DNA from: Streptosporangium sp. NBC_01755
GTDB taxonomy: Bacteria; Actinomycetota; Actinomycetes; Streptosporangiales; Streptosporangiaceae
Length of the DNA stretch: 64,000 nt
Direction of reading: 5' to 3'
Assembly (NCBI RefSeq): GCF_035917995.1
Contig: NZ_CP109131.1
Coordinates: forward strand, 248,001 to 312,000
In this document: positions 5,037-29,037 of the stretch, one piece after another
How the letters are laid out: each line of letters starts with the position of its first letter
Numbering within the stretch: position 1 is the stretch's first letter
Program-made: the position numbers and the translations under genes
The notes under the pieces: model-generated
Databases searched by the model: none
Told to the model about the DNA's origin: nothing
The model's input: the letters and a program-made list of their open reading frames with translations, nothing else

Positions 5037-5041
5037 GTGTT

Positions 5042-9460: not shown

Positions 9461-9507
9461 TCGCGCGGGGGCTTGTGGCGGACGCCGACCTTGCGTGCGG
9501 ACCTGGC

Positions 9508-10953: not shown

Positions 10954-10977
10954 GCCCCTATCGAACCAAACGCTTGA

Positions 10978-11877: not shown

Positions 11878-11935
11878 ATCCCGTACTTTATGCGGCAGCC
11901 CGGAAGGATCATGGATCGAGTGGTTCACTTGCCCG

Positions 11936-12829: not shown

Positions 12830-12874
12830 GTTGTGGTTACTTGGCAACCAGGCCCGAACAAGGAGAGCAGCCAG

Positions 12875-13153: not shown

Positions 13154-13173
13154 TCCGGGCCGGAGGGACACAG

Positions 13174-13204
13174 AGACCGCGATCTCACGGCGAGATCGCG
13201 GTCT
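13174..13204 (+). terminator. Intrinsic terminator
   Basis: A 13-bp perfect stem, AGACCGCGATCTC with its complement, closes a five-base loop (ACGGC). It lies 20 bases after the zinc-ribbon stop. There is no long U-tract, as is usual in high-GC actinobacteria. Confidence 0.85.
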
Positions 13205-13906
13205 TCGCGTCCGTCTCCTAACTGCTCGGGCCCCCTCCAGATTCATGGACGGCCGTCGTGTGATACCGGCGGACCTCAGGAACCGCAGGTCGTGACCGAC
13301 GATGACAGGCGCGCGCCGGTAGACCCCCAACGCCCGGACCGGCCGCGGGACATTCGTAAAATACGCCGGAGTCTCAGGCACCCTCCGGCTCCCAGGGCTC
13401 CGATATGGCGGTTTGAGGTCATGCTCACCACTGCGGGCAGGACAGCATGATCTACCCCCACCTCACCTGGAGGGCCGGGGCGCCGGCATGTTCCCCCCAT
13501 GCCTGCCGGCGCGTGCTCCGTGTCGGCCCGGCTCCCGCTGGAGTGTGCGACGGAAGGCTCCGCGGTTTACCTAAACAAGGTTTTCGCGCCAGAAGACCGC
13601 CCGTGCCATGAGGAGTTCCCGGAAAACCATGCCATCGGATCAGGAGACATTTGAAAACAACTACCCTCGTCACCGGAGGTGTAGCTCAGAGTGATTAAAC
13701 GCCTCTGATCAATTCTTGCCGGGAACCCGAGGGCAATCAGACTGAACCGCTACCTTTGCCTCCCTGAGATGACCGTTCTCACGCTTCGCACCTAGCGTGA
13801 GTCAGATCCAGACGCTGTGCAGGTGTCGTCCTCGATACCGGCTCAGGCGTCTTGGCAGCCCGGGTATCTCCCAGGGTTCCACCAATTCGGCAGGGAGTGA
13901 TCTCTC
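13205..13906 (+). other. 700-base non-coding leader region of the poly-glycine gene
   Basis: No gene is visible on either strand. The stretch contains a 9-bp perfect hairpin (GCGCCGGCA, 13480-13488, with TGCCGGCGC, 13504-13512). From about 13560 it drops in GC and shows several short pairings: GAGGTGT/ACGCCTC (about 13678-13710), TTGCC/GGCAA around CGGGAACCCGAG (about 13717-13736) and CTCACGCT/AGCGTGAG (about 13779-13802). This suggests a long structured 5' leader rather than spacer. No known riboswitch consensus fits. A clear ribosome site, AGGGAGTGA, precedes the ATG at 13907. Confidence 0.45.
13480..13512. other. Perfect 9-bp inverted repeat (possible hairpin or protein site)
   Basis: GCGCCGGCA at 13480-13488 pairs with TGCCGGCGC at 13504-13512 around a 15-base loop that includes six C. 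It may be an upstream gene-independent terminator or an operator for the poly-glycine gene. Confidence 0.6.
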
Positions 13907-14365
13907 ATGATCATCCTTAGGAACATGCTCGCAGCCGGCGCGATGGTCGTCTCAACCCTCGCCGCCCCCGTAGCGATGTCGGCCCAGCCCGCCAGTGCGG
14001 GCACCGTGGCACAGGAGGTCGTCACGACCACCCTCATCTCCGCTGAGAAGCCCTGCAGGTTCCACAAGAATCCCGCGAGATGCTTCGCCAGGCGCGGTGG
14101 CGGAGGCGGTGGTGGTGGTGGCGGCGGAGGCGGTGGAGGCGGCGGCGGTGGCGGTGGCGGAGGCGGAGGCGGAGGCGGAGGCGGAGGCGGCGCCAATGTC
14201 AGCAACGTCAACACCAACACCAACATCGTCGGCGGCGGTGGAGGTGGCGGCGGCGGAGGCGGCAACCGCGGAGGCGGCGGCGGAGGCGGCGGCGGCGACC
14301 GCAGCGGCGGTGGAGGCGGCGGCGGCGGAGGAGGAGGCGGCGGCGGAGGCGGAGGCGGAGGCTGA
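13907..14365 (+). CDS. Secreted poly-glycine protein
   Basis: This 152-residue protein has a clear Sec signal: a hydrophobic core (MLAAGAMVVSTLAAPVAM) and a cleavage-like site after QPASA at about residue 31. A short mature head of about 32 residues follows, with two cysteines (C50 and C59) in KPCRFHKNPARCFARR. Then come nearly uninterrupted glycine tracts broken only by NVSNVNTNTNIV, NR and DRS segments. No family is recognisable. The glycine codons vary (GGC, GGT, GGA), so the protein sequence, not just DNA slippage, seems to be maintained. It may be a wall- or sheath-associated structural polymer. It stands alone, with a long leader upstream; the antisense poly-proline frame is a shadow. 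Confidence 0.75.
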   Translation: MIILRNMLAAGAMVVSTLAAPVAMSAQPASAGTVAQEVVTTTLISAEKPCRFHKNPARCFARRGGGGGGGGGGGGGGGGGGGGGGGGGGGGGGGGANVSNVNTNTNIVGGGGGGGGGGGNRGGGGGGGGGDRSGGGGGGGGGGGGGGGGGGG

Positions 14366-14567
14366 TCCACCGACAGCCGCAGAGACCATCGCCAGAGGCA
14401 TTCGACACCGCACGTGCCAAGCGATGAGGCGGTAGAAACACCGGCGCCCGCCCAACGGCCGGGACAGCTCCGGCAGTGAACCCGCGCCAACAGATCAGGA
14501 TGTTCCGCGCCGGTCGCCGAAGGCGGCCGGCGCGGAACCCGATCGCAGCCGAGACCTCGTCCGGATC

Positions 14568-16019
14568 TCAGCCGGTCGGCCGGACCACGAGGAGCGACCG
14601 CGGGCGCTTGGTGAACTCCGCCTCGCCCGTGACCGTGAACGTCTCACCGTCGCACGCCAGCCGCAGTCGTCCCGAGGGGGCCGAAAGGCACAGCGTGTCG
14701 GCCTGCCACTGCTGGTAGTGGCGTGAGAGATTCACCCTTGCGGCCAGCAGGCTGAGGAATACCCGCACCCGGGGCAGCCGGTCGGCGGCGGTGAGCACAC
14801 GGATGTCCAGCAGACCGTCTTCCAGCCGTTGCCGTCTGGCGGGAGCGCCACCGCGCGCCTCGTAACGGCAGTTGCCCACGAACACCGTCCAGACACGCCT
14901 GGGCACACCGTCCACGACGAGATCCACCGGCCGCGCGCCCCCCGGGCCGAGTACCTCGGCCATGGCCCAGAACAGCGCGGGCCACGTGCCGACCCGGCTC
15001 TGCCGTCGCTCCCCGCTCTCCACCAGCGCCTGGTGGAGGCCCACACTGACGGAGTTGACGAACCTCCGGCCCGCGACCTCGCCGACGTCGACAGCCACGA
15101 GGTCACCGCTGTGGTACGCCTCAACCGCCTCCTGGGCGGTCTCGACTCCGAGCGCGCGGGCGAACCGACCGCGGAGGCTCGTGGGAACGACCAGCAGCGG
15201 GGTCGCCGCGCCCGTCGTCTCCTGTGCGGCGAGATTGACCACGGCGTCTCCCCCGGCCACCGCGAGCACTTTGGCCCGCGAAGCGGCGTCCCGCACGGCG
15301 GCCCCGAGGTCGGCACCTGGCGCCACCTCGACGATCTCGGCCCGGGGAAGGGCCGTGCGTAGCGTCTCGGCCGTTCCCGCGGCGGCGTCGGCTGAGCCGT
15401 CGACCACGGCGACCGCCCCCTCGCCCTCCGGATCGAGCAGCACGGAGGGCGCCGTCAGGGCGGCACGGGCGTGCCCCGCCTCTCCCGCGTCGGGCCAGAT
15501 ACGGCGGGTGGCCAGTCCCGCCACCACGCCGATCCCGGCCCCCGCGAGTACGTCGCCCGGATAGTGCACACCGGTGTAGACGCGGGAGAAGCAGACGGCG
15601 GCCGCGAGAAGCCCGACAGGGACCGCGACCGCTCGGGGCGCCTCCATCGCCACGGCCGCGGCGAAGGCGGCGGCCGAGGCGGAGTGGCCCGAGGGAAACG
15701 ACGCCGAAGTGGGCATCTTGATCATCCGGGCGAGCGGGAGCCCTTCGGCCGACGGCCGGTTCCGGCGGAAGGCCTGCTTGCCGACCAGGTTGACCAGCGG
15801 GCTGGCCAGGCTGACCGCGAGCAGCCCCCTGGTCGCGGCGCGGCGCAGCGGCCGGCGCCCACTGACCGCGAACGCCCCGGCCACCCCGGCCCACAGCAGG
15901 GAGTTGTCCGCCGCGCGTGACAGCGCGGGCACCACACGTTCAAGACCGGGCAACCTCGCGCTCGCCACCATGGCGAACACCCTCCGGTCCAGCCTGCTCA
16001 GCCGCGAGCTCAACCGCAT
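14568..16019 (-). CDS. PAP2 phosphatase fused to a diacylglycerol-kinase-like domain
   Basis: This 483-residue fusion has an N-terminal half that is a PAP2 phosphatase with the motif KQAFRRNRPSAE, the catalytic FPSGHSASAAA and SRVYTGVHYPGDV, embedded in membrane helices. All three PAP2 motifs are intact, so lipid-phosphate phosphatase activity at the membrane is expected. The C-terminal half has the DAGK fold, but the nucleotide loop reads GGDAVVN instead of GGDGTVN. The usual P.GT.N.FA loop reads VPTSLRGRFARALG. The kinase half is therefore probably inactive or altered. ATG 16019 follows GGGAGGGG; an upstream frame to 16109 is unlikely. It lies downstream of the PPK2 gene on the same strand, separated by the 45-bp repeat. 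Confidence 0.88.
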   Translation of the reverse strand: MRLSSRLSRLDRRVFAMVASARLPGLERVVPALSRAADNSLLWAGVAGAFAVSGRRPLRRAATRGLLAVSLASPLVNLVGKQAFRRNRPSAEGLPLARMIKMPTSASFPSGHSASAAAFAAAVAMEAPRAVAVPVGLLAAAVCFSRVYTGVHYPGDVLAGAGIGVVAGLATRRIWPDAGEAGHARAALTAPSVLLDPEGEGAVAVVDGSADAAAGTAETLRTALPRAEIVEVAPGADLGAAVRDAASRAKVLAVAGGDAVVNLAAQETTGAATPLLVVPTSLRGRFARALGVETAQEAVEAYHSGDLVAVDVGEVAGRRFVNSVSVGLHQALVESGERRQSRVGTWPALFWAMAEVLGPGGARPVDLVVDGVPRRVWTVFVGNCRYEARGGAPARRQRLEDGLLDIRVLTAADRLPRVRVFLSLLAARVNLSRHYQQWQADTLCLSAPSGRLRLACDGETFTVTGEAEFTKRPRSLLVVRPTG

Positions 16020-16144
16020 GCGTCCCCTCCCGCGATGACGAAGAACAATGACCGACGAATGGACGGTCATTTGATTCTGCCGCCTACCCCGATCCACGGT
16101 GCGTGGCACGTCTCCACCACCTCCATACTTCTCGTCAGAACGGC

Positions 16145-16279
16145 TTTAACGACACGGTCTCGCTAGTCGTCCGCCATCCCCTCCGCCCTTTTAACGACAC
16201 GGTCTCGCTAGTCGTCCGCCATCCCCTCCGCCCTTTTAACGACACGGTCTCGCTAGTCGTCCGCCATCCCCTCCGCCCC
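16145..16279. repeat. Three tandem copies of a 45-bp unit that copies the 3' end of the PPK2 gene
   Basis: Units at 16145, 16190 and 16235 are essentially identical, each starting TTTAACGACACGGTCTCGCT. The third copy (16235-16279) overlaps the true 3' end of the PPK2 gene on the minus strand. The repeat therefore carries the last 8-9 codons, including GMADD and the stop, plus about 18 bases of flank, duplicated twice downstream of the gene. Confidence 0.97.
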
Positions 16280-17038
16280 GGAGGGGGTCGTCGGCCTGTA
16301 GCCCCGGGCGGTGAGTTCGGCCTCGATCGCGGCGCAGACGGTCTCCACCACCGTGACCCGGGCCAGGCGTTTGTCGTCGCCGGGGACCACGTGCCACGGC
16401 GCCTTCGGGTGGTCGGTATGTGCGAGCATGTCCTCCACGGCGGCCTCGTACAGCGGACGCTTCTCGCGGTTGCGCCAGTCCTCGTCCGTGAGCTTCCACG
16501 CCCGCAGCGGGTCGCCGGCCCGGTCCTGGAAGCGCCGGAGCTGCTCGTCCTCGGAGACGTGCATCCAGAACTTGACCATGATCATGCCCTCGGCCACGAG
16601 GGTCCGCTCGAACTCCACGATCTCTCCGTACGCGCGGGACCACTGCTCCTCGGTGGCGAAGCCCTCGACCCGCTCCACCAGCACCCGGCCGTACCAGGAG
16701 CGGTCGAGCACGGTCATCCCGCCCCAGCCGGGCAGGACCGGCCAGAACCGCCACAGAAAGTGGTGGCGCTTCTCGTCGTAGGTCGGCGCGGCGAACTGTG
16801 CGACGCGAACGTGGCGCGGGTCCAGCGGGCGCACCAGCCGCTTGATGGCACCTCCCTTGCCCGAGGCGTCCCACCCTTCGAAGACCACGCACAGCGGTGG
16901 ACCGATGCGCTGCTCGCCGACCTGGCCGCCGAGCGTGAGCCGCAGGTGGAGCAGGCGTTCGAGAGCGGCGTCGAGACGCTCGGAGGCCTCTTTCTTGGTG
17001 AGTTTCCGTGACAGGTCAACCTCAGCCAGGCGATTCAT
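16253..17038 (-). CDS. ppk2: PPK2-family polyphosphate kinase
   Basis: This 261-residue P-loop kinase transfers phosphate between polyphosphate and nucleotides. It shows Walker A (GWDASGKGG), the Walker B-like DRSWYGRVLVERVEGF and the conserved segments EQWSRAYGEIVEFE and MVKFWMHVSEDEQLRRF. These define class I/III PPK2 proteins, which phosphorylate nucleoside mono- or diphosphates. ATG 17038 (MNRLAEVDLSRKL) is preceded by GAGG at about 11 bases; an alternative ATG lies at 17062. The 3' end is repeated downstream (see the 45-bp repeat). A Ppx/GppA gene about 25 kb away supplies the hydrolytic side of polyphosphate metabolism. Confidence 0.93.
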   Translation of the reverse strand: MNRLAEVDLSRKLTKKEASERLDAALERLLHLRLTLGGQVGEQRIGPPLCVVFEGWDASGKGGAIKRLVRPLDPRHVRVAQFAAPTYDEKRHHFLWRFWPVLPGWGGMTVLDRSWYGRVLVERVEGFATEEQWSRAYGEIVEFERTLVAEGMIMVKFWMHVSEDEQLRRFQDRAGDPLRAWKLTDEDWRNREKRPLYEAAVEDMLAHTDHPKAPWHVVPGDDKRLARVTVVETVCAAIEAELTARGYRPTTPSGAEGMADD

Positions 17039-17216
17039 GCTGACAAGCCTCGCATGTCCCATCCTGTGCGCACTCCCGAAGAGCGGCTCCGGTCGCGCGC
17101 CGTCAGGTCAGGCGTCCCGGTAGACCTCTCTGGCCCGGCCGATCAGGTCAAGGTGGTCGGCGAGCGAGAAGACGGGCTCGGTGGAGCCCCGCCCGTCCCG
17201 GAAGGGGGCATGCTCG

Positions 17217-17858
17217 TCAGCGGGTCCCGGTCCGCTCCGCGGAGGGTTCGGCACTCCCCTGCGGGGATGTCGTGCCCAGCCGCATCCGCATCGCGTGCTC
17301 CACGAGGGCGATGAGCACCTCCTTGCCCGACTCCCGCTGCCTGGCGTCGCACAGCACGATCGGGATGTCCTCGTGGAGGGTCAGCCCGAGCCTGACCTCG
17401 TCGAGTTCGTAGTGACGGGCCCCGTCGAAGCAGTTGACCGCGACGATGAAGGGCGTCTCGCGCCGCTCGAAGTAGTCGAGCGAGGGGAAGCAGTCGGCCA
17501 GCCTGCGGGTGTCGGCGAGGACCACCGCGCCCAGCGCGCCCAGCGCCAGCTCGTCCCAGAGGAACCAGAAGCGCTCCTGCCCCGGCGTGCCGAACAGGTA
17601 GAGGCGGTAGTCGTCGCCGATGGTGATCCGGCCGAAGTCCATCGCGACGGTGGTGGTCTGCTTGGTCTCCACGCCCGACAGGTCGTCGACGCCTATGCCC
17701 CGGTCGCTCAGGGTCTCCTCGGTGCGCAGCGGCTCTATCTCGGAGACCGCGCCGACCAGCGTGGTCTTGCCCGCGCCGAACCCTCCGGCGACCAGGATCT
17801 TGATCGCCTTGGGCATCTTCGCGCGCCCGGCGTCACGGCTAGAGCGCGCGGAGTCCAT
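17217..17858 (-). CDS. cvnD: CvnD: conservon small Ras-like GTPase
   Basis: This 213-residue GTP-binding protein of the actinobacterial conservon has a P-loop GGFGAGKTT, a switch region with TTTVAMDFGRI, the G3-like LFGTPGQERFWFLWDEL and the G4-like VAVNCFDGARHYEL. Conservon GTPases work with CvnA-C as a membrane-associated complex that resembles a eukaryotic G-protein module. The start at ATG 17858 (MDSARSSRDAGRAK...) overlaps the end of cvnC by 20 bases and matches the family N-terminus better than ATG 17816. It is the last gene of the cvnABCD set. The region to 17039 holds only promoter-sized spacer. Confidence 0.93.
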   Translation of the reverse strand: MDSARSSRDAGRAKMPKAIKILVAGGFGAGKTTLVGAVSEIEPLRTEETLSDRGIGVDDLSGVETKQTTTVAMDFGRITIGDDYRLYLFGTPGQERFWFLWDELALGALGAVVLADTRRLADCFPSLDYFERRETPFIVAVNCFDGARHYELDEVRLGLTLHEDIPIVLCDARQRESGKEVLIALVEHAMRMRLGTTSPQGSAEPSAERTGTR

Positions 17859-18225
17859 CGAGCACCGCCCTGTACAACCTCTCGTCGTGCATATCCGTCT
17901 CCGAATGCGGTTCTTGTATAGCGATGAATCCCTGGTCGAGCAGGTCACTGAGCAGGACGCGGACCGTGCCTGCCGGAAGGTTCATGTGGGCGGCGATCTC
18001 CGCGACCGACTGGGCCAACTGGCAGAGCCGGACGATGGCCAGGCACTCCGGGTCCAGTCCTGGCTCCCTCGACGAGACCTGCCGGATGGTCACCACCAGG
18101 GTGATGAGGTCGAACCTACCGCGGGTCGGTTCGGTCCTGCCTCGCGTCAGGATGTACGGCCTGACGATCGGCCCTGCCTCGTCCCCGACCCACTGGGCCT
18201 CGGGCTGCTCGTCGAAGATGCTCAT
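17839..18225 (-). CDS. cvnC: CvnC: DUF742 protein
   Basis: This 128-residue DUF742 protein is recognised by GPIVRPYILTRGRTEP near the N-terminus. A winged-helix-like segment with LCQLAQSVAEIAAHMNLPAG and VRVLLSDLLDQGFI follows. In conservons it associates with CvnB and CvnD and may bind DNA or bridge the complex. The ATG at 18225 overlaps the cvnB stop as ATGA, which indicates translational coupling. Nothing is missing compared with the family (115-130 residues). Confidence 0.93.
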   Translation of the reverse strand: MSIFDEQPEAQWVGDEAGPIVRPYILTRGRTEPTRGRFDLITLVVTIRQVSSREPGLDPECLAIVRLCQLAQSVAEIAAHMNLPAGTVRVLLSDLLDQGFIAIQEPHSETDMHDERLYRAVLDGLRAL

Positions 18226-18653
18226 CGCGTGCCGTCGCCTCTGAAGGAGGTGTCGGCAGTCCGGGTGGGCGAGGTGAGGTACTGGCCGACGCGGGTGACG
18301 AGCATGGCCATCTCGTAGGCGACCAGGCCGACGTCGGCGTCGGCGCCGCAGAGCACCGCCAGGCACGCCCCTTTCCCGGCTGCCGTCACGATCAGGTACG
18401 CGGTCCGCATCTCGATGATGGTCTGGCGCATCGGCCCGCCGCCGACCCGGTCGCTGACCCCGCGGCCCAGGCTCTGGATCGCCGACCCGACGGCGGCCAG
18501 GTGCTCGGCGTCGGCGGGAGGGAATCCGGCCGAGGCCGCCAGCAGCAGGCCGTCCGTGGAGAACACGATTCCGTGCTGAGCTTCCTCCACCCGCGAGACC
18601 AGGTCGTCCAGCAACCAGGCCAGGTCCGTGAAAGATCCTGTTCCCTGCACCAC
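18222..18653 (-). CDS. cvnB: CvnB: roadblock/LC7 domain protein
   Basis: This 143-residue roadblock/LC7 protein has the segment LAWLLDDLVSRVEEAQHGIV followed by STDGLLLAASAGF, the classical roadblock start. It also has the later strand YLIVTAAGKGACLAVLCG. Roadblock proteins regulate small GTPases such as CvnD, and they dimerise. GTG 18653 is preceded by AGGAGAGG. The C-terminus runs into cvnC. The gap to cvnA (100 bases) is larger than within B-C-D. Confidence 0.94.
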   Translation of the reverse strand: MVQGTGSFTDLAWLLDDLVSRVEEAQHGIVFSTDGLLLAASAGFPPADAEHLAAVGSAIQSLGRGVSDRVGGGPMRQTIIEMRTAYLIVTAAGKGACLAVLCGADADVGLVAYEMAMLVTRVGQYLTSPTRTADTSFRGDGTR

Positions 18654-18753
18654 TCGTTGTCCTCTCCTTCTGCCTGCCGATGTTCCGTCGCCGGCCCTCG
18701 GCGCCTCGTCGGCACCGAACCTGGCACGCGCGACTCAAGATCAAATATTGGGG

Positions 18754-21336
18754 TCACACGGCAGGCCCACCCTCGTTCACGGGGTCGCCGTCCTGCCTGG
18801 TCAACTGGGCCGCGACGTCGCGGCCGCGGCGCGTGCCCGTCTGGAAGGACGTCATGGCCGCGCGGATCATCTCCGGGGAGCGTTCGTCGGCGCCACCGTC
18901 GTCCGGAGGCACCGGCGCCGCCGGCTCGTCGTCCTGCAGCGGGGCGGCGAGATGTGTCTGGGGAACGCGTCTCGGGAGGCCGCCCGGTGTGTGGCTGCTG
19001 TCGGGCGGGGGCAGCACGGGCGGCGGTGCCCCCCCTGGGCCTCCCGGACGTCCGGGAGCCGCGGAGCCGTCGAGGGCTCCGCCCGCAGGCGCGCCCGGTG
19101 AGGCGGGATGTCCGGGGTTCGTGAAGTCGGGCAGGCTCATAGGTGCTCCGGAGTCGGGCAGCCGCCTGAGTGCCGCGGGATCGGCGAACCCCTCCGCGGG
19201 CGCCTGAGCGGCGAGACCCTGGTCGGCGAAGCGACCAGGAGACGCGGGTTCCCACGCCTCGGGCCAGGCCCCCAGGACGGGCTCGCCGACGGGCTCTCCC
19301 TCGGCGCCGCCGGCCCGCACGGGACCACCGGCGATGCCCAGGGGATCGCCGACCCTGCTGCGGACCGCGGCGACCGCGGACGTGGTGCCGTTCATCTCGC
19401 CGGTGCTCGCCGGGCGTGCCTGCGGCACGCCGACGCCGACGGAGGCGCCCGGCCCCTCCTCGTTGATCAGGTCCTGTGGGATGAGGACGACGACGGTCGT
19501 GCCGCCGTACGGGGACGCCTTGAAGGCCACCCGGACGTTGTGCCGTTCGGCCAGGCGGCTGACGACGTACAGGCCCAGCCTGGCGTTGCCGGAGAGCTTG
19601 AGCTCCGGGGGGTTGGCGATCCGCTCGTTGGCGCTCGCGATGTCCGCGGCGCTCATGCCCAGCCCCCGGTCCTCGATCTCCAGCGCGTAGCCGTGGGCCA
19701 CGAGGTGCCCGCCGACCTGGACCGTGGTGTAGGGCGGTGAGAAGGAGGCGGCGTTCTCGACGAGTTCGGCGATCAGGTGGATGACGTCGCTCACGGCCCG
19801 GCCGTCCAGCGCCACCTCTCCCAGGGGCATCACGTCGACCCGGGTGTAGTCCTCGATCTCGGCGAGCGAGCCGCGGACCACGTCGATCATCGGGACCGCC
19901 TCGCGCCAGGCCCGGCCGGGCGCCGCACCGGAGAGGACGAGGAGGTTCTCCGCGTAGCGCCGCATCCGGGTCGCCAGGTGGTCGAGCCGGAACAGGTCGC
20001 GCAACTCCTGCGGGTCGTTCTCGCGCCGCTCCATGATGTCGAGCACGCCCAGCTGGCGGTGCACGAGCGACTGGGTGCGGCGGGCGAGGTTGCGCAGGAT
20101 GTCGGCGATGTCACGGCGCAACTGGGCCTGCTCCGCCGCGACCTTGATCGCGGTTTGCTGCACGGCGTTGAACGCCTGGCCGACCTGCCCGATCTGGTCG
20201 TCGCCGAACTTGAGTGGCGGCGCCTCCGCCTCGATGTCCACGATCTGCCCGTGGCCGATCCGCTCGACCACGGAGGGCAGCCTCTCGTTGGCGAGCTCCC
20301 AGGCGGCGGCCCGCAGCTTCTCCAGCTGCTGGACCAGGGCGCGGGCCGTGGTGATGGCCAGGACGACCGAGGCGATGACGGCCACGAGGCCCAGGCCGCC
20401 GGCCAGCGCAAGCCGCACGATCACGCCGGCCGCGACCGGGCCCGACCGCTCGACCACGCCGCTGCCGGCCGTGAGCACCGTCTCCGTCAGCTTGGTCTGT
20501 GCGGGCTGGGCGTCGGAGCTCCACCGCGTGACGTCGACCATTCCGGTCGACACCACGCTCGCGCCCCCGATCAGCTGCTCCTCCATGGCTCTCAGCCGGG
20601 TGAACTGCTCGCCGGCGGCCAGCCGCCGGTAGGCCTCCTGGTCGGCAGCGGGCAGCTCGGCCACCGCATCGGCGAGGAGGAAACGCCGCGTGCCGACGAT
20701 CTGCGTGAATCTGACCTGCTCGCCGTCGGCGAACCGGCCCGCCGTCAAGGCGCCCATCACCAGGGCGTCCCCCTGGGAGAGCATGTCCCGGGCCCGGTTC
20801 ATCTCGATGAGCGTGCGGGTGTCCTTGGCGAGTTCCTCGTCGTCCAGCGTGGCCAGCGAGTCGTAGACGCGGAAGATGGAGTCGACGATGTCGGTGAACT
20901 CCTCGGCGGCCCAGGTCCGGTTGACCCGGCCCGCGTCGATCGCCTTGCGCGCGGCGGCCAGGTCGTCCAGCAACCGGCGCGTCTCGGCGATACGGCGTTG
21001 CAGGGCCGAGCTTCCCAGAAGCTGCACGCTGCTACCGGCGGTGAGCTCCCGGAAGTTCGCGCCCGCGGCGTCGGTGCGCCCGCGCTGGGCGGCCAGCGCG
21101 TCGCGCCGGTGTTCCGTGCCGCCCGCGCCCAGCGTGATCGCGGTAAGCCTTCGTTCGGCCTGCACCTCGACGATGAGCCGCTCGCTCGGCTCCGCCACGT
21201 CGGTGTTGAGGGTCGCCACGCCCAGCATGTTCACACCGTCACGGACCGTCACCCATGCCGTGAACGCCCAAAGCGCGGTGAGCGACACCAGAAGTGCCGT
21301 GACCTTGGTCCGCAAGCTCGCGTTACGCAAGCGCAT
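18754..21336 (-). CDS. cvnA: CvnA: nitrate-sensor-like histidine kinase-type membrane protein
   Basis: This 860-residue conservon sensor is anchored by a first membrane helix (VTALLVSLTALWAFTAWVTV). It has a long extracytoplasmic region of the nitrate/nitrite-sensing (NIT) type and a second helix (LALAGGLGLVAVIASVVLAI). A HAMP-like segment and a coiled DHp-like helix (RRTQSLVHRQLGVLDIMERR) precede an HATPase domain with ELVENAASFSPP (N box), DRGLGMS (G1) and NARLGLYVVSRLAERH (G2). A Pro/Gly/Ala-rich disordered tail of about 200 residues ends the protein. The start ATG 21336 is chosen over 21423 because the basic-then-hydrophobic start is canonical. It lies 197 bases after the diterpene cyclase gene, with a hairpin in the gap. 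Confidence 0.92.
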   Translation of the reverse strand: MRLRNASLRTKVTALLVSLTALWAFTAWVTVRDGVNMLGVATLNTDVAEPSERLIVEVQAERRLTAITLGAGGTEHRRDALAAQRGRTDAAGANFRELTAGSSVQLLGSSALQRRIAETRRLLDDLAAARKAIDAGRVNRTWAAEEFTDIVDSIFRVYDSLATLDDEELAKDTRTLIEMNRARDMLSQGDALVMGALTAGRFADGEQVRFTQIVGTRRFLLADAVAELPAADQEAYRRLAAGEQFTRLRAMEEQLIGGASVVSTGMVDVTRWSSDAQPAQTKLTETVLTAGSGVVERSGPVAAGVIVRLALAGGLGLVAVIASVVLAITTARALVQQLEKLRAAAWELANERLPSVVERIGHGQIVDIEAEAPPLKFGDDQIGQVGQAFNAVQQTAIKVAAEQAQLRRDIADILRNLARRTQSLVHRQLGVLDIMERRENDPQELRDLFRLDHLATRMRRYAENLLVLSGAAPGRAWREAVPMIDVVRGSLAEIEDYTRVDVMPLGEVALDGRAVSDVIHLIAELVENAASFSPPYTTVQVGGHLVAHGYALEIEDRGLGMSAADIASANERIANPPELKLSGNARLGLYVVSRLAERHNVRVAFKASPYGGTTVVVLIPQDLINEEGPGASVGVGVPQARPASTGEMNGTTSAVAAVRSRVGDPLGIAGGPVRAGGAEGEPVGEPVLGAWPEAWEPASPGRFADQGLAAQAPAEGFADPAALRRLPDSGAPMSLPDFTNPGHPASPGAPAGGALDGSAAPGRPGGPGGAPPPVLPPPDSSHTPGGLPRRVPQTHLAAPLQDDEPAAPVPPDDGGADERSPEMIRAAMTSFQTGTRRGRDVAAQLTRQDGDPVNEGGPAV

Positions 21337-21488
21337 GGTGTCCACCCCGGGAAGCAGAAAGAAAATAGACGGCACTTTTTGCGGCAGTCGACGCACATAG
21401 GTCAAACGGTCGCCGCATCGCACGGATCAGCGGGACATCCCGCATCACACCCGCCGAACCCTAGCAATGTCACTAAACACACTCAAGG

Positions 21489-21519
21489 CGGGACAGAGCA
21501 GATGTACCCTTCTGTCCCG
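21489..21519 (-). terminator. Hairpin between the diterpene operon and the conservon
   Basis: A 9-bp perfect stem (CGGGACAGA at 21489-21497 and TCTGTCCCG at 21511-21519) sits 15 bases after the cyclase stop on the minus strand. It lacks a U-tract, so it is a terminator or attenuator typical of high-GC genomes. It could make the cvn genes partly independent of the terpene operon. Confidence 0.6.
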
Positions 21520-21533
21520 TTTCGCATTCATCG

Positions 21534-23195
21534 TCAATTCTCAATACGAGTCGTCTCCGGAAGTGAGAGCCCGCGCCGTGCCAGGTGAAGCGCGCCCAGA
21601 ACGGCCGCCCTGACGATCGCCACCGGCAGGTACAGGTCCTTGTCGACCCAGAGCGACGGCGCCTCGCCGTCGCGGGTGGCCGCCAGGCGGCGGTATCCAC
21701 GTTCCACGGCCTCCCGCCACCGCTCCCCCCGCGCCGCGCCGGTCAGCAGCAGGGTCTGCAGCGCGTAGGCGGTCTCCTCCGCGGTGCCCTCCCACCGGCC
21801 CCACGACCCGTCCGCGCGCTGGGTGCCGAACACCCACTCCAGTGCCCTGTCCACCGCGCCCACCGACTCCTCACCGCCGAACTCGTGCAGCGCGATGGCG
21901 CAGCAGGCGGTGGCGTAGTACGGCGAGACGTGCCAGCGGTCCGTCCAGCTGCCGTCCGCCTCCTGGCGGTCACGCAGCCACCCGGCCAGCTTGGTCACGA
22001 CGGCCTCGTGGCGGGGCTCCCCCCCGCACCGGCGCAGGTACTCGCCGAAGGCGTCGAGCACGTGCGCGTTGGTCGTCGGGGACATTCCCTCCTCTCCGCG
22101 CCAGGTGCAGAAGTGGGTCTCCGTCTCGAACGGCCACAACCCCTCGGGCTCGCGTGGCTCGCCGATCAGCGCCAGCGCGTACAGGGCGACGGAGGTGGTG
22201 TCGGCGTCCGCGGGAAGACCGGGCCCCGTGGCGGCCCCCTCGGGACCGAGCCCGTCCCGCAGGCTCGCGACCAGCTCCGGTGACACGTCCACCGGGATTC
22301 CCGCGCGCCGCAGCCAGCTGAGCGTCCAGCCGCGCTCGAACACGCTGATGGGGAGGGCGCAGGGCACCGGCCCGCCGGTGGAGGCCACGACCGCCTCCAG
22401 GTAACGCCGTACGGCCGCCTCCTGGCCTGGCCTGGAGCCGGGCGACGCGGCCAGCCAGGCCGCGCCGGCCGCGGGCGAGGCACCGACGGCGGCCATCCCG
22501 CCGGGCATCGGCGTGGGAAGGATCCCGGAGGCCGCCGTCGCCTCCGCCCCCGCGACCTCAAGGGCGTGGACCAGCTTCTGCGGGATCTCCGCGCCCGACG
22601 TCAGCCACGCCCTGACCGAGGCCAACTTGGCACCGTCCATGCCCGGGGGCGGTTTCGGCCCCGCCCCGCCGAGGTGACCGTCGATCAGGGAGAGCAGGGA
22701 CGACACGATGAGCTCGATCGCGGGCGTGTCCGGCAGGGACTCGGCGCGGCGGAACCGCTTCCTCACGGCCTCCAGCCCGCGGTCGGCCGCCTTGGCGAGC
22801 AGGTCGAGGTCGGCGGAGGCGCCGCGCCCGATCTCGGCCAGCAGCGCCTCGACCGCGCTCAGCGTGGGGACCAGGGCATGGTCGCCGGATGAGTGCCAGC
22901 CGCCGTCCGGCCGCTGGGTGGCGAGCAGGAACCCGACCCGCTCGGCGTGCCCGGCCAGCCACGGGGCCAGGCTCACCACCCGGCCGGTCTCGTACGGGGA
23001 GGCGGACACCTGCCCCCAGGGCTGGGCCAGCAGCCCGGCGACCAGCTCGCGCGCCTCGGCGACCATGTCGATCCCGTCGCCTGGCCCGGTGCCGGTCTTC
23101 GTGCCGCTCCCGGCGTCGGACCCGGTAGGGACCCTCCGGCCGATCTCCGGCGAGATGTCGAGCGCCGCGGGGGCGGACAGGTCGTCGATGCTCAC
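21534..23195 (-). CDS. Class II (type-B) diterpene cyclase with DXDTT motif
   Basis: This 553-residue cyclase has the alpha/alpha-barrel fold of squalene-hopene and copalyl-diphosphate synthases. Three QW-like repeats are visible (QRPDGGWHSSGDHALVPTL, RQEADGSWTDRW and QRADGSWGRWEG). The general-acid motif is DADTT at residues 330-334, where most class II enzymes have DXDD. The same DXDTT form is known from the Mycobacterium tuberculosis Rv3377c halimadienyl-diphosphate synthase. The expected reaction is proton-initiated cyclisation of GGPP to a bicyclic diphosphate without loss of the diphosphate. The start GTG 23195 overlaps the stop of the class I gene (GTGA), so expression is coupled. The first 45 residues are variable. 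Confidence 0.88.
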   Translation of the reverse strand: MSIDDLSAPAALDISPEIGRRVPTGSDAGSGTKTGTGPGDGIDMVAEARELVAGLLAQPWGQVSASPYETGRVVSLAPWLAGHAERVGFLLATQRPDGGWHSSGDHALVPTLSAVEALLAEIGRGASADLDLLAKAADRGLEAVRKRFRRAESLPDTPAIELIVSSLLSLIDGHLGGAGPKPPPGMDGAKLASVRAWLTSGAEIPQKLVHALEVAGAEATAASGILPTPMPGGMAAVGASPAAGAAWLAASPGSRPGQEAAVRRYLEAVVASTGGPVPCALPISVFERGWTLSWLRRAGIPVDVSPELVASLRDGLGPEGAATGPGLPADADTTSVALYALALIGEPREPEGLWPFETETHFCTWRGEEGMSPTTNAHVLDAFGEYLRRCGGEPRHEAVVTKLAGWLRDRQEADGSWTDRWHVSPYYATACCAIALHEFGGEESVGAVDRALEWVFGTQRADGSWGRWEGTAEETAYALQTLLLTGAARGERWREAVERGYRRLAATRDGEAPSLWVDKDLYLPVAIVRAAVLGALHLARRGLSLPETTRIEN

Positions 23196-24085
23196 AACGT
23201 CCCCCAGTAGTCACCGACCTGGTAGAAACCGGCGCAGAAGTCCATCTGCCGTTCCATGTAGCCCGCCAGCTCCGGATGGGCCTCCCGAAGCGGGGCGACC
23301 AGCTCCCTGCTCCGGGCCGCCAGCTCGGCGATCCGCCGCTCCACCTCGGCGCGGCCGATGTCGAGCAGCAGGACGTTGAGGTCTCCCCAGGCGACGTCCC
23401 GCTCGTAGGTGCCCAGGTCGTTGAGGAGGCGGATGACCCGTTGCACGGCCCAGCCCGCCTCGCGCAGCGGGCCGACGTCCGCGACCGCGCCCCGGCCCGT
23501 GACGTGGATCCAGTGGGCGGCGAACACGAAGGAGAAGCCGAGGTTGTCGGCGTTGCCGAGATACTCCTCGAAGGTCGGCACGACCTTGTCGCTCTTCCAG
23601 CGCCACTCCACGAGCATCCCGTCCAGCATGCGTTCCAGCTCGTCACGCCAGATCGGCCCGAGCTCGGGGAAGACCGGCGAGGAGGCGAGCTCGTCGCGGA
23701 TGCCGGCGAGCATGCGGGTGAGGTCGTCGCCGGGGACCGGCGGACCCCCGGCGGCCACGTCCAGGCATCGCCGGGAGATGTCCGCCACCTCGGCCGGCGA
23801 GGTGGCGACGTAGTCGACGAGCCAGTCCAGCCCGAACGCCCACAGGGAGGTCTTGTTCGCCATCCGCAGCTGCTCGGCGGTGAACCAGGGCCCGCCGAAC
23901 GCCATGGCGAGCGAGAGGGTGCTGTACAGGGCCGCGTCGAAGGGCTTCGCGGAGAACAGGCCGGGATAGGTCTCCGCCCACTCGCGCATGTCCCGCTGGG
24001 AGCGGCCGGCGCGGGCGCAGATCGTCCCGGCGGCCGTCGCCTCCATGGCCTCCGGCCGGATGCCGGGGTCGAGTCGCGCCGTCAT
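23192..24085 (-). CDS. Class I terpene synthase
   Basis: This 297-residue all-alpha ionisation-type synthase has the NSE triad in LLNDLGTYERDVAWGD (NDxxTxxxD), which binds Mg2+. The aspartate-rich site reads DWLVD (residues 87-91) in FGLDWLVDYV instead of DDxxD. It should ionise the bicyclic diphosphate made by the neighbouring class II enzyme, giving a diterpene alcohol or olefin; that pairing is inferred from the operon. ATG 24085 overlaps the P450 stop (ATGA). The longer in-frame extension to 24166 overlaps P450 coding and is rejected. Confidence 0.87.
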   Translation of the reverse strand: MTARLDPGIRPEAMEATAAGTICARAGRSQRDMREWAETYPGLFSAKPFDAALYSTLSLAMAFGGPWFTAEQLRMANKTSLWAFGLDWLVDYVATSPAEVADISRRCLDVAAGGPPVPGDDLTRMLAGIRDELASSPVFPELGPIWRDELERMLDGMLVEWRWKSDKVVPTFEEYLGNADNLGFSFVFAAHWIHVTGRGAVADVGPLREAGWAVQRVIRLLNDLGTYERDVAWGDLNVLLLDIGRAEVERRIAELAARSRELVAPLREAHPELAGYMERQMDFCAGFYQVGDYWGTL

Positions 24086-25482
24086 CGCAAGACCCCGCCC
24101 TGATCGTGCCGGGCGGAGGATACGCCCAGCTCGACCTTGCCCTTGGGGCGCAGCGAGGCGGCCCACCCCGTGATGAACGGCCCCGGTGTGCGCACCGACA
24201 TCCGGAACCGGCTGAGGATGCTCGCGACCACGAGCGGCGCCTCAATGTAGAACAGGGGCTCGCCCAGGCATTTGTGCGGCCCGCCGCCGAAGGGGAAGTA
24301 GGCGTACCTGTGCCTGCGCTCCTCGCTCTCGGACCTGCCGGGCGCGAACCGCTCGGGGTCGAACTCGTCCGGGCGCTCCCAGAACTCCTCAAGCCGCTGG
24401 GTGGCGTACGGGGTTACCAGCACCGTCGAGCCGGCCTTGATCCGCACACCGCCGATCTCCGCGTCCTCCATGACCATGCGAGGGAGCAGCCAGCCCGCCG
24501 GGTACAGGCGCAGGGTCTCCTGAAGGACCATGCGGGTGTAGGTGAGGTGGGGGATGTGCTCTGGGCGGGCCGGCCCCGCGCCCACCACCTCGTCGATCTC
24601 CGCCTGGAGCCTGGCCTCGACGTCCGGGTGCTCGTCCAGCAGCAGCCACAGCCAGGTGAGGACCATCGCGGTGGTCTCCGACGACGCGGCGTACACGCTG
24701 ACCAGGGCGTCGCGGATCTGTTTCTCGGTGAGCCTGTCGCCGTTCTCGTCGACGGACCGGCAGAGCACGGAGATGACGTCGACGTTGTCGTCGGGGTCGG
24801 CCATCGCCTTTCTCGCCACGGGGAAGACCACGTCGTCGATCTCCCTGACGGCCTTCAGGAAGGCCCGGTCGCCGGGGATCCGGATGAAATACGGCATGAA
24901 CGGCATGAGGATCCGGTAGACAAGCGAGTGGGACACCCGGTCGAAGGCGGGGATGATGCGCTCCCCGTCCTCCCGGTTCAGCTTGTCCCCGAACAGCACC
25001 CGGTTGACGATGTAGCTGAGGATCCCGGACATCTCCGTGGCCGCGTCGAAGTCGCGCCCCGACTGGACGTACCCGTCCCACTCCTGGACGCGCCCGGCGA
25101 CGCGCCTGGACACCTCCTCGGCGATCGTGGCGATGTACCGCGTGGTGAACAGCGGCTGCAGGACCTTCCGGCTGTTCTGCCAGTGCTCGCCGTCACTCAT
25201 GATGCTGTGCCCGAAGAGCCGCTCCAGGGGGCGCCAGAACATCCCCAGGCGCCGGTAGTTCGTCCATTCGACGCGCATCACCTGCTGGACGTGGTCGGGA
25301 TGGGTGACCAGGTAGGGGCGGAACGGTCCCAACTCCAGCCGGACGACCTCCCCGCCGGCCTCCCGGGCGAACTCGGCGAGCGCGCCCGCCGGTTCACGGA
25401 GCAGCTTCGGCAGGGCCTGGCGTATCGGAATGGATCTCACTCGGCGACCGGGACCGGTATGCACGTCGACGGACATAGGCAA
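24082..25482 (-). CDS. Cytochrome P450, first gene of the diterpene operon
   Basis: This 466-residue P450 has the I-helix segment YAASSETTA, the K-helix ETLR, and the heme loop FPFGGGPHKCLG with the cysteine ligand. The length and the aromatic FxGGG loop are those of class VII/CYP4-like bacterial enzymes, not the short 400-residue type. It should hydroxylate the diterpene made by the two downstream synthases. It also matches the P450 (CvnE) component known next to some conservons. No ferredoxin gene is adjacent. ATG 25482 has a second ATG two codons later. It heads the operon; the 434 bases upstream carry its promoter. Confidence 0.92.
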   Translation of the reverse strand: MPMSVDVHTGPGRRVRSIPIRQALPKLLREPAGALAEFAREAGGEVVRLELGPFRPYLVTHPDHVQQVMRVEWTNYRRLGMFWRPLERLFGHSIMSDGEHWQNSRKVLQPLFTTRYIATIAEEVSRRVAGRVQEWDGYVQSGRDFDAATEMSGILSYIVNRVLFGDKLNREDGERIIPAFDRVSHSLVYRILMPFMPYFIRIPGDRAFLKAVREIDDVVFPVARKAMADPDDNVDVISVLCRSVDENGDRLTEKQIRDALVSVYAASSETTAMVLTWLWLLLDEHPDVEARLQAEIDEVVGAGPARPEHIPHLTYTRMVLQETLRLYPAGWLLPRMVMEDAEIGGVRIKAGSTVLVTPYATQRLEEFWERPDEFDPERFAPGRSESEERRHRYAYFPFGGGPHKCLGEPLFYIEAPLVVASILSRFRMSVRTPGPFITGWAASLRPKGKVELGVSSARHDQGGVLR

Positions 25483-25916
25483 ACGTCTCCCACCTCACGT
25501 GATGTGAATTCGCGCAGCGTGAGACAACCGTCCGCGCGGGTGAGCGCGGCAGCGTTCGGAAACGGGGACATTCCACTTGTCCCGCTCCCACCCGGTGCAT
25601 GGATAACGACTGGCCGACCAGCGGATCAGAACCGGCCGACCGAAATCCTTCCAGAGTACTCCGGGTCTCCTCGCCTGTCTCAGTACCGGATTTACGTACT
25701 AAAGCGCATCACATCACATCATTGGTAAGTCTTCACATGAAGTATCACATGACCTACCAGAAGTGATCAAGCTCGTATTTGATATAAACCCTGCCCGTTT
25801 CGGACACGAGCTTCGTTAACATGCGCTTAACACGGCGGCTTAAATGACGGATCAGCTCCCCAGCGCGCCGTCACCCGATGTCACCCAGGGTTACCGGAGA
25901 TTCGCGCCCGGAGCCG
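25483..25916 (-). promoter_or_regulatory. Intergenic control region upstream of the P450-terpene operon
   Basis: These 434 bases lie upstream of the P450 on the minus strand and 3' to meaB. No gene is visible. Between about 25708 and 25755 the hexamer TCACAT recurs four times (CATCACATCACATCAT, CTTCACATGAAG, TATCACATGACC). The middle one is set in TTCA-CA-TGAA, which looks like a clustered operator. The region is markedly less GC-rich than its neighbours. A conventional promoter hexamer pair cannot be fixed by eye. Confidence 0.45.
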
Positions 25917-26903
25917 TCAGTCGCCCCTGCCGAAGGCCGCGAGGATGCGGTCGGCGGCCAGCGAGGGGGTGAGTTCACCCTCGGCGACCTCGCGTTCCAT
26001 CTCGGCGATGATCGCCGCGACCCCCGGGTGCTCACGGAGCCGGGTGAGCAGCCGGTCGGTGACCATGGCCCAGGTCCAGCGGACCTGCTGGCGGCGGCGG
26101 CGCTCGGCGAGCTCCCCCGAGGCCTCCAGGGCGTCGCGGTGCCTGACGACCTGGAGCCAGAGCTCCTCCAGGCCGTTACCGGTCAGCCCGCTGCAGGTGA
26201 GCACCGGAGGCGTACGCTCCGCGCCGAGCAGGTGGAGCGCGCCGGCGAGTTCCCTGGCGGCCCTGCGCGCGTCCAGCTCGTGGGGGCTGCCCTCGGCTCC
26301 GTCGGCCTTGTTGATCGCGATCACGTCGGCCAGCTCCAGCACCCCCTTCTTGATGCCCTGGAGCTGGTCGCCCGTCCTGGCCAGGGTGAGCAGCAGGAAG
26401 GTGTCGACCATGTCGGCGACGGTGGTCTCCGACTGGCCGACGCCGACGGTCTCCACCAGGACGACGTCGTACCCGGCCGCCTCCACCACGACCATCGCCT
26501 CGCGGGTCGCCCTGGCGACCCCGCCCAGGGTGCCCGAGGTGGGCGAGGGGCGGATGAAGGCTGCCGGGTCGGCCGCCAGGCGGGACATCCTGGTCTTGTC
26601 ACCCAGGATGCTCCCGCCGGTACGGGTCGAGGACGGGTCGACGGCGAGCACCGCCACCCGGTGGCCCTCCCCGGTCAGCAACGTGCCGAGCGCGTCGACG
26701 AACGTGGACTTGCCGACGCCGGGCACACCGGTGATGCCGACCCTGCGCGCCGCACCGGCCAGCGGGGTCAGTTCGACCAGCAGCCGCTGGGCCAGTTCCC
26801 TGTGGTCGGCCCTGGAGGACTCCACCAGTGTGATCGCCCGCGCGATCCACACCCTGGAGCCCTCCTTCACCCCCTGGACGTAGTCGTCAAGCGTGCGCGT
26901 CAT
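25917..26903 (-). CDS. meaB: MeaB/ArgK-type GTPase, methylmalonyl-CoA mutase chaperone
   Basis: This 328-residue G3E-family GTPase protects and reloads methylmalonyl-CoA mutase with adenosylcobalamin. It shows the P-loop [16 protein letters not shown], the ArgK-specific [20 protein letters not shown], the switch [13 protein letters not shown] and the G4 motif INKADG. The start ATG at 26903 lies 17 bases inside the end of the mutase large-subunit gene, so the three genes form one coupled operon. The chaperone is placed last, as in many actinobacteria. Confidence 0.96.
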
Positions 26904-29037
26904 GACCCAGCCGGGTGAGCAGGTCCGCCAGCAGTCCCCTGGCCGCGTCGGCGATGACGGTGCCGGGTGGGAAGATCGCGCTCGCGCCCGCGGCGCGCAG
27001 TTCGTCGAAGTCGCCCGGCGGGATGACGCCGCCGACCACGATCATGACGTCCTCCGCGCCCAGCTCGGCCAGCGCCTCGCGGAGCGCAGGCACGAGCGTG
27101 AGGTGGCCGGCGGCCAGCGAGTTCACGCCGACCACGTGCACGTCCGCCTCGACCGCCTGCCGGGCGACCTCCTCGGGCGTCTGGAACAGCGGGCCGACGT
27201 CCACGTCGAAGCCGAGGTCGGCGAAGGCCGTGGCGATCACCTTCTGGCCCCGGTCATGACCGTCCTGGCCCATCTTCGCCACCAGGATGCGGGGGCGGCG
27301 GCCCTCCAGCCGCTCGAACTCGGCGCACGCCTCGCGGACCGTGTCCACGCCTGATCCCACCTCCTCACGATACACGCCGGTGATCGTACGGATCTGTGCC
27401 GCGTGCCGCCCGAACACCCGCTCCAGGGCGTCGGAGATCTCCCCGACCGTGGCCATCGCACGGGCCGCCTCGATCGCCAGCGCGAGCAGGTTCCCGTCGC
27501 TCGCGGCCCCCTTGCTGAGTGCCGTCAATGCCTCCTCCACCCGCTCGGGGTCGCGCTCGGCGCGCAGGCGGCGCAGCTTGTCGAGCTGCTGGGCGCGTAC
27601 GGAGGTGTTGTCGACCTTGAGCACCTCGATGGGCTCGTCGGCGTCGGGCCGGTACTTGTTGACGCCGATGACCGGCTGGCGCCCGGAGTCGATGCGCGCC
27701 TGGGTACGGGCGGCGGCCTCCTCGATGCGGAGCTTGGGCAGCCCGGCGTCGATCGCCTTCGCCATGCCCCCGGCGGCCTCCACCTCCTCGATGTGGGCCC
27801 ATGCCTTGGCCGCCAGCTCGTGGGTGAGCCGCTCGACGTAGTAGGAACCGCCCCAGGGGTCGATCACCCGGCAGGTGCCCGACTCCTGCTGGAGCAGCAG
27901 CTGGGTGTTGCGGGCGATCCGCGCGGAGAAGTCGGTGGGCAGGGCCAGCGCCTCGTCCAGGGCGTTGGTGTGCAGCGACTGGGTGTGGCCCTGGGTGGCG
28001 GCCATCGCCTCGACGCAGGTGCGGACGACGTTGTTGTAGACGTCCTGGGCGGTGAGCGACCAGCCGGAGGTCTGCGAGTGGGTCCGCAGCGAGAGCGACT
28101 TGGGGTTCTTCGCGTCGAACCCGGACACCAGCCGCGACCAGAGCAGCCGGGCGGCCCGCAGCTTGGCGACCTCCATGAAGAAGTTCATGCCGATGCACCA
28201 GAAGAACGACAGGCGCGGCGCGAACCTGTCGATGTCCATGCCCGCCTCGACACCCGCCCGCAGGTACTCCACCCCGTCTGCGAGGGTGTAGGCGAGCTCC
28301 AGGTCACACGTGGCCCCGGCCTCCTGGATGTGGTACCCGGAGATCGAGATCGAGTTGAACTTCGGCATCCTCTCGCTGGTGTACGCGAAGATGTCGGAGA
28401 TGATCCGCATCGAGGGGCCCGGCGGGTAGATGTAGGTGTTGCGGACCATGAACTCCTTGAGGATGTCGTTCTGGATGGTCCCGGCGAGCTGCTCGGGTGC
28501 CACCCCCTGCTCCTCGGCGGCCACGACGTAGAGCGCGAGCACCGGAAGCACCGCGCCGTTCATGGTCATCGACACGCTCATCTTGTCGAGGGGGATCCCG
28601 TCGAACAGCTGCCGCATGTCGTAGATGGAGTCGATGGCCACGCCCGCCATGCCGACGTCCCCGGCGACGCGCGGGTGGTCGGAGTCGTAGCCCCGGTGGG
28701 TGGCCAGGTCGAAGGCGACCGACAGCCCCTTCTGCCCGGCGGCCAGGTTACGCCGGTAGAAGGCGTTGGACTCACTCGCGGTGGAGAACCCGGCGTACTG
28801 CCGGATGGTCCACGGCTGGTTGACGTACATGGTCGGGTACGGGCCGCGCAGGTAGGGCGCGACGCCGGGGTAGGTCCCCAGGAAGTCGAGACCATCGGTG
28901 TCCGCGGCGGTGTAGAGCGGTTTCACCTCGATCCCCTCGGGCGTCTCCCACACCGGGCCACGAGGTCCGTCCGCCGCGGCCGGGGCGGCCACCGCCGGTC
29001 GCGTGCCGAGTTCGATCTCGGAGAAGTCGGGAATCAT
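26887..29037 (-). CDS. mutB: Methylmalonyl-CoA mutase large (alpha, catalytic) subunit
   Basis: This 716-residue adenosylcobalamin enzyme interconverts succinyl-CoA and (R)-methylmalonyl-CoA, which supplies propionate assimilation and methylmalonyl extender units. The N-terminal TIM barrel contains [17 protein letters not shown] and [14 protein letters not shown]. The C-terminal B12 domain has the ligand-containing [12 protein letters not shown] (DxHxxG), GVNSLAAGH and VVGGVIPP. Full length for the family. The ATG at 29037 overlaps the small-subunit stop (ATGA); an open frame to 29973 is antisense-like noise over the small subunit. Confidence 0.98.

Follow-up and report, generated by a model that had tools for sequence, protein, structure and literature searches.

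Conserved linkage of a conservon to diterpene biosynthesis genes in Streptosporangium sp. NBC_01755 and related genomes

The window analyzed here is a stretch of 64,000 nucleotides (positions 248001-312000) from the 8.15-Mb single-contig genome of Streptosporangium sp. NBC_01755. Seven of its genes, all on the minus strand, lie in the order P450, TSI, TCII, cvnA, cvnB, cvnC and cvnD, i.e., a cytochrome P450 (P450), a class I terpene synthase (TSI) and a class II diterpene cyclase (TCII) followed by a conservon. An earlier, sequence-only reading of this DNA had described the P450, class I and class II genes as overlapping by ATGA and GTGA, with cvnABCD on the same strand. Coordinates and junctions were checked and found to be correct, including the gap between TCII and cvnA and the acid motif DADTT at cyclase residues 330-334. 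Comparison with other genomes confirmed that the arrangement is not local and is more than a product of chance.

Genes of the locus

The P450 gene (24082..25476) matched PF00067 (5.8e-72), and its product resembles terpene oxidases of the pentalenene/albaflavenone type. The best NCBIfam models were albaflavenone monooxygenase (3.5e-70) and pentalenene oxygenase (2.2e-66), both under cut-off, and the best PDB matches were 7wzl and 3dbg. The stop is at 24082, and the ATG at 25476, directly after GTGGGAG, is a likelier start than the TTG at 25482, which is also possible. TSI (23192..24085) matched PF19086 (Terpene_syn_C_2, 8.6e-14) and overlaps the P450 gene by ATGA. TCII (21534..23195) matched SQHop_cyclase_C (9.8e-15), overlaps TSI by GTGA and has its DADTT motif at 22194..22208. 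The gap between TCII and cvnA is 197 bp long (21337-21533) and contains a conserved promoter-like element.

The remaining four genes form a conservon in the order A-B-C-D. cvnA (18754..21336) encodes a membrane histidine-kinase-like sensor with an extracytoplasmic NIT domain (5.5e-40), a HATPase domain (5.3e-12) and a C-terminal tail; the start at 21336 gives MRLRNASL, and the open frame extends to 21423. cvnB (18222..18653) encodes a Roadblock/LC7 protein (PF03259, Robl_LC7, 1.9e-22), cvnC (17839..18225), which overlaps cvnB by ATGA, a DUF742 protein (PF05331, 5.9e-35), and cvnD (17217..17858, alternative start 17816) a small GTPase with the P-loop GGFGAGKTT (PF03029, ATP_bind_1, 4.8e-32). 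No solved relatives of CvnC and CvnD were found by sequence, anti-phage defence models gave no match to CvnA-D at E 0.001, and an Rfam scan of 14000-30000 found no known RNA at gathering scores. DUF742 matches mark 11 conservons in the genome, with one match each, and terpene-synthase domains matched six times, at four places. The genes described here are the genome's only terpene/conservon neighbour pair.

Conservation of the gene order within the family

TCII homologues (E<=1e-40) were found in 168 of 297 genomes of the family, representing 30 of 68 genera. Within a phylum sample of 396 genomes, this one included, six others had TCII homologues, all with 30-34% identity. The sequence-only reading had called for a search for the same gene order in other genomes, and this search bore the arrangement out: 26 of 28 loci, retrieved as TSI relatives from named genomes, had P450, TSI, TCII and cvnA in the same order and on the same strand. 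In four of these 26 no cvn gene past cvnA was found before the sequenced stretch ends. Every genome listed in the gene-order search belonged to the same family, the 59 without a match being unlisted.

From family genomes we collected 80 TCII loci, comprising 60 good matches (one per genus where listed, plus extra ones that we selected) and 20 that were weaker, partial or second matches. Conservon genes were found beside TCII in 70 of them; nine were paralogues without a conservon and one was a fragment. All 60 good-match loci had conservon genes after TCII on the same strand, and the 20 weaker ones divided into 10 with conservon genes, nine without and the fragment (L150). The latter is a contig-end piece first counted as unlinked, and its apparent complement in the same genome (L151) carries a conservon. 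Eight duplicate loci and one with a short TCII frame (L055) were dropped before the tree, element, overlap and motif counts. Overlaps of 4 nucleotides were highly conserved for TSI/TCII (68 of 69 loci) and cvnB/cvnC (67 of 73), and were present for P450/TSI in 54 of 68. Among 23 loci with full flanks, each gene of the block was present in 21-23, and the flanking genes varied, with meaB and mutA nearby in 10 and the PPK2 region in eight.

In a TCII tree of 108 rows, made by a quick method with SH-aLRT support only, the 89 linked rows and fragment L150 formed one clade (96). Eight of the nine unlinked paralogues from the family grouped with PtmT2 (support 84), and the ninth, a partial row (L149), was basal on a long branch. 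Four of the unlinked class II cyclases (L140, L141, L143 and L147) have as a neighbour a class I synthase distantly related to TSI (28-30% identity) and represent a second type of diterpene pathway, found in Streptosporangium and relatives without a conservon.

The linked CvnA proteins, the split copies described below and a CvnA from genome G098 likewise formed one clade (SH-aLRT 99), apart from 31 rows from other conservons. The linked set comprised 77 rows from 75 loci (L082 and L110 were entered twice), rows shorter than 600 amino acids or below 150 bits being excluded. The other set was printed as 32 rows, one of which was the G098 CvnA itself, and two of the remaining 31 were the same protein. 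Nine of these 30 distinct proteins came from this genome, whose tenth other conservon (L168) yielded no CvnA. The linked CvnA clade is absent from the other loci examined, bar the one orphan in G098. Fourteen family genomes without TCII were searched with the first transmembrane helix (TM1) and NIT domain of CvnA. Two had no match at 1e-10, 11 had best matches of 43-125 bits, and G098 reached 182 bits, compared to 173-251 bits in four TCII-bearing controls. By this part of the protein, a close CvnA was absent from 13 of the 14, and the presence or absence of TCII and of a close CvnA go together with G098 as the one exception.

The linkage was also found to survive rearrangement, namely replacement of the class I enzyme (nine loci) or division of the block into divergent halves. 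At eight loci TSI is replaced by a different class I synthase between TCII and cvnA, which was on the opposite strand in all four loci examined in detail. A relative of the replacement synthase lies beside a polyprenyl synthetase at locus L081. Three loci (L082, L101 and L110) have a split block, with P450-TSI-cvnA and a divergent TCII-cvnB-cvnC-cvnD. Two of these have, before cvnB on the plus strand, frames of 166 and 168 amino acids (L082, 6751-7251; L101, 6764-7270) which resemble only the C-terminal tail of CvnA and have no Pfam match. This conserved tail may form a functional part of CvnA. At the locus of Actinomadura macrotermitis (L057), positions 10001-16209 hold a TSI homologue and, on the opposite strand, a P450, a second diverged TSI and cvnA.

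Promoter-like elements and the CvnA sensor

Two elements were found by comparing 22 close loci, the shared patterns being TTGATC...ATCATGTGATACT before P450 and CTTGAG...TTGCTARGGT before cvnA. In the window they are TTGATC-N11-GTCATGTGATACTTC at 25739..25770, with a spacing of 17 between TTGATC and TGATAC, and CTTGAG-N-TTGCTAGGGT at 21458..21487, both on the minus strand. Although the same 22 loci entered both the consensus and the test sets, 72 of 79 loci matched ATCATGTGATACT at no fewer than 10 of its 13 bases, compared to 1 of 79 shuffles, and the strict form of the cvnA element, TTGA[GC]-N18-TANGGT, was present in 42 of 74 gaps compared to a shuffled mean of 0.03. The 16-mer of the P450 element had its sole site with 0-1 mismatch in the 8.15-Mb genome at this locus and six sites at two mismatches (one for the reversed control pattern), and the pattern of the cvnA element was unique in the genome (control 0). 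At the ten other conservons of this genome, which are covered by nine loci, the patterns tried for the two elements gave no match. A sigma-70 consensus scan of the locus found no promoter.

Both elements look like promoters with a spacing of about 17 bp, and ATCA-TG-TGAT at the -10 position of the first could be an operator. Since both reappear in relatives throughout the clade and each is unique within the genome, the P450-TSI-TCII half and the cvn half are probably under separate promoters. The sequence-only reading had proposed a test of co-transcription across the gap; a single shared transcript is unnecessary with separate promoter-like elements, though no terminator was found between TCII and cvnA.

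The same reading had suggested that the G-protein-like complex controls, or responds to, the diterpene. The association behind this suggestion is real, old and conserved, and a functional tie is therefore likely. It suggests a sensor that controls, or listens to, one kind of small molecule. On balance we favour regulation of the neighbouring diterpene pathway by the conservon.

CvnA has a NIT domain as its ectodomain, with the NIT domain of NasR as a relative (4akk, 3.7e-12 and 49.6 bits with a 52-row profile). In NasR, Arg176 belongs to the predicted nitrate pocket (PMC7496416, available text). The corresponding position, by a numbering offset of our own and an alignment of 49.6 bits, was found to be Asp in 75 of the 77 linked rows and in 14 of the 31 others. 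NasR-type nitrate sensing by CvnA is therefore unlikely. The region of TM1 and NIT (20419..21336, minus strand) carries, where TM1 ends on the outer side, a signature specific for the linked clade (W28, V29, R32, G34 and N36), together with G291 and P300. Each of these residues was present in 94-100% of the linked clade and in 0-32% of the 31 other rows, W28 being found in all 77 linked rows (75 distinct loci) and in none of the others. All 77 linked rows likewise have V29, G34 and D166, and 52 of 52 have F25 and T30. The orphan CvnA of G098 has kept W28, R32 and N36 and lost F25, V29, T30, G34 and D166.

The signature would fit a further reading, possible but on the improbable side, in which the diterpenoid itself is the ligand of CvnA at the membrane/NIT junction and control of biosynthesis is feedback. 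The losses in G098 are what loss of a ligand would predict, and the Asp in place of Arg176 is consistent with it. However, a single orphan is anecdotal, and it sits on a generally long branch; the Asp, being shared by 14 other rows, is no mark of the clade, and the signature may instead serve signalling or dimer contacts. In addition the class I enzyme, and hence probably the product, varies between lineages that keep the signature. We put forward only tentatively that the operon would encode a hormone together with its own receptor, read at the clade-specific juxtamembrane site and relayed via the Ras-like GTPase. If true, Streptosporangiaceae would carry a diterpenoid circuit with the logic of G protein-coupled receptors, its ligand diversified by class I exchange.

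The predicted pathway and the role of the conservon

The DADTT of TCII is a variant of the DxDD-type acid motif in which the middle Asp is kept. D-[AC]-D-[TS]-[TS] was found in all 80 distinct linked TCII proteins, the window included (71 DADTT, 4 DCDTT, 3 DADTS, 1 DADST and 1 DADSS), and DxDD in none. Ten linked loci fetched later gave nine with DxDTT, one of these DSDTT, and one without it (L151). TCII scored 362 bits to 5bp8, an ent-copalyl diphosphate synthase, 214 to 7xkx and 110 to 6vpt; 5bp8 we take to be PtmT2, and 6vpt to be Rv3377c. The DxDTT motif alone therefore does not name the product. A Tyr has been proposed as the base of the Mycobacterium tuberculosis enzyme (PMC11795633, available text). 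In our alignment it corresponds to Tyr522 of TCII, and as PtmT2 also has Tyr there the residue does not discriminate between the cyclase types.

The metal motifs of TSI are DWLVD, rather than DDxxD, as the Asp-rich motif and NDLGTYERD as the NSE motif. Its closest solved relative is Sat1646 (7e4n, 232 bits), which converts copalyl diphosphate to isopimara-8,15-diene and has the catalytic dyad Tyr183-Tyr288 (PMC9814573, available text). In our alignment TSI has Leu at position 183 and keeps Tyr288, with further differences V84A, T85F and A185F. Isopimara-8,15-diene was dropped as predicted product since these four active-site residues differ. The same source describes the terp1/sat cluster of Salinispora (SaCPS, SaDTS/Sat1646 and CYP1051A1), which like the present locus combines class II, class I and P450 genes; the word conservon does not occur in that paper, whereas a conservon is present here.

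Polyprenyl synthetase homologues were found in 36 loci, 31 of them linked and five unlinked. Of the linked ones, 19 had at least 53% identity to the L081 protein and 12 had 34-37%. There was none in the window. These 31 conservon-linked homologues in relatives make it somewhat more likely that TCII accepts geranylgeranyl diphosphate (GGPP). We expect a labdane-related, probably oxidised diterpene, without naming it.

From the analogy to Rv3377c, the sequence-only reading had considered a halimane as product. Formation of a halimane diphosphate by TCII is in agreement with DxDTT(SVA) as in 6vpt and with the absence of DxDD from the 80 linked proteins, but it is unlikely. TCII is by descent much nearer to PtmT2 than to the mycobacterial enzyme, a homologue with the DCDTTSVAY motif of 6vpt (L125) falls outside on a long branch in the TCII tree, and three unlinked paralogues (L140, L143 and L147) also carry DADTT. 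The class I partner here is moreover a PF19086 synthase, nearest to Sat1646. Halimane by motif alone was accordingly rejected as the leading reading. The tuberculosinol pathway, presumably that of Rv3377c and Rv3378c, shares the DxDTT motif with this locus; its cyclase is distant from TCII, and its class I partner, Rv3378c, we take to be of another fold and unrelated to TSI.

Altogether, the eight kb likely represent one old functional unit. The best explanation overall, and one we consider reasonably probable from comparative evidence, is a labdane-related pathway with a dedicated, cluster-bound conservon acting for that pathway alone. TCII would make a bicyclic diphosphate from GGPP, TSI would ionise it, and the P450 would oxidise the resulting product. 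The NIT domain of CvnA would sense an extracellular or membrane signal, which may shift the GTP state of CvnD via a GAP-like (GTPase-activating) CvnB and a GEF-like (guanine nucleotide exchange) CvnC, roles reported for the Mfp system (PMC13343842, available text). The state of CvnD would then set expression or activity of the diterpene enzymes. By analogy to Cvn8 of Streptomyces coelicolor, which holds down its neighbouring lanthipeptide cluster, this would most likely be at the P450 promoter.

Several observations weigh against a dedicated regulatory unit. The conservation sample was chosen by us, and much of the conservation is vertical descent within one family, so that the loci are not independent. 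Two of the 28 named loci deviate, with no P450 within 10 kb upstream in Virgisporangium (L058) and no TCII in the 20.8 kb examined in A. macrotermitis. cvnB was undetected in two loci at E 1e-6 and in G098 at E 1e-3. The conservon is able to exist alone, since the orphan cvnA-cvnC-cvnD of G098 (L196) lacks terpene genes within 18 kb. We recognised no dedicated DNA-binding regulator, and with separate promoter-like elements the halves need not be co-transcribed.

Some of these points would also fit mere inertia, i.e., one ancient event joined operon and conservon, and vertical descent kept both without interaction. The TCII and CvnA trees broadly follow the organisms when judged by eye, each half has its own promoter-like element, and G098 has the conservon alone. 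We nevertheless find inertia quite unlikely. In 13 of 23 loci the genes that lie upstream of the block in the window were not detected close to it, yet the block stays together, the class I enzyme was exchanged inside it, and terpene and cvn genes are still interleaved in both halves after the split. Inertia also fits poorly with the lack of a close CvnA in 13 of 14 TCII-less genomes.

The sequence-only reading had taken CvnE and CvnF as precedents for a P450 and a terpene cyclase. CvnE proteins are P450s beside conservons and CvnF is a GAF-domain protein, both occurring with CvnAs that lack the sensory NIT domain (PMC13343842). That the present P450 is a CvnE-type accessory, with the terpene genes incidental, was rejected as highly improbable because CvnE lies after cvnA-D (PMC13343842), whereas this P450 precedes TSI, mostly overlapping it, ends 2.7 kb upstream of a NIT-bearing CvnA and has terpene oxidases as its best named, below cut-off models, the distinction being made by description and not by CvnE sequence.

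The reading of a conservon dedicated to the diterpene pathway has precedents, as conservons tied to biosynthetic clusters are already known; the diterpene tie adds a new variant. Cvn8 adjoins a biosynthetic cluster as here and sets an example of a conservon controlling such a neighbour (PMC8510531). The lan genes are expressed more strongly after deletion of cvn8 genes, the precursor genes by about 600-fold in a cvnB8 mutant (PMC8510531; PMC13343842). Its cluster is, however, a lanthipeptide cluster and not a terpene one (PMC8510531), and it has the GAF accessory CvnF8, of a type found with CvnAs that lack a sensory domain (PMC13343842), whereas the CvnA here bears a NIT domain and an accessory of that type was not seen. 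A conservon was reported in all of more than 10 indole prenyltransferase clusters, whose products are also isoprenoid-modified; in the available text it is said to be always upstream, whereas it is downstream here, and the products are prenylated indoles with no terpene cyclase mentioned (PMC3617294). In the frankiamicin cluster of Frankia sp. EAN1pec a conservon (fkmR1-R4) lies inside the biosynthetic operon, as a likeness, but the product is a type II polyketide, and the authors suggest action via a separate regulator, FkmR5 (PMC4383371, available text). Titles and abstracts of the open-licence literature, a scope outside which most subscription papers fall, gave no match for a conservon-diterpene linkage.

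For actinobacterial conservons in general, both the signals sensed and the processes controlled are an open question. The lineage described here has apparently been tied to one short pathway since the time of an ancestor early in the family, and it provides a small defined system where ligand, output and promoter are each directly testable. The locus may also be useful for activating or silencing the diterpenoids of this group. Diterpenoids described from it include k4610422, actinomadurol, JBIR-65 and a pimaradiene acid of Microbispora, none tied to the locus by evidence (PMC10301674; PMC7338456; available text).

Elsewhere in the window, 2769-7332 looks like a mobile patch around its GC-poorest 2 kb (59% at 4001-6000). 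It encodes a reverse transcriptase with a group II intron maturase domain (2769-4202; RVT_1 2.4e-39, GIIM 1.9e-13), a transposase (5229-6254; DDE_3) and a protein with a DnaB-like helicase C-terminal domain (6331-7332). Three perfect 45-bp tandem copies at 16145-16278 overlap and extend beyond the 3' end of the PPK2 gene (16253-17062, minus strand). Perfect tandem repeats were also found at 9311-9464 (5.1 copies of 30 bp) and 50108-50252 (2.0 copies of 72 bp).

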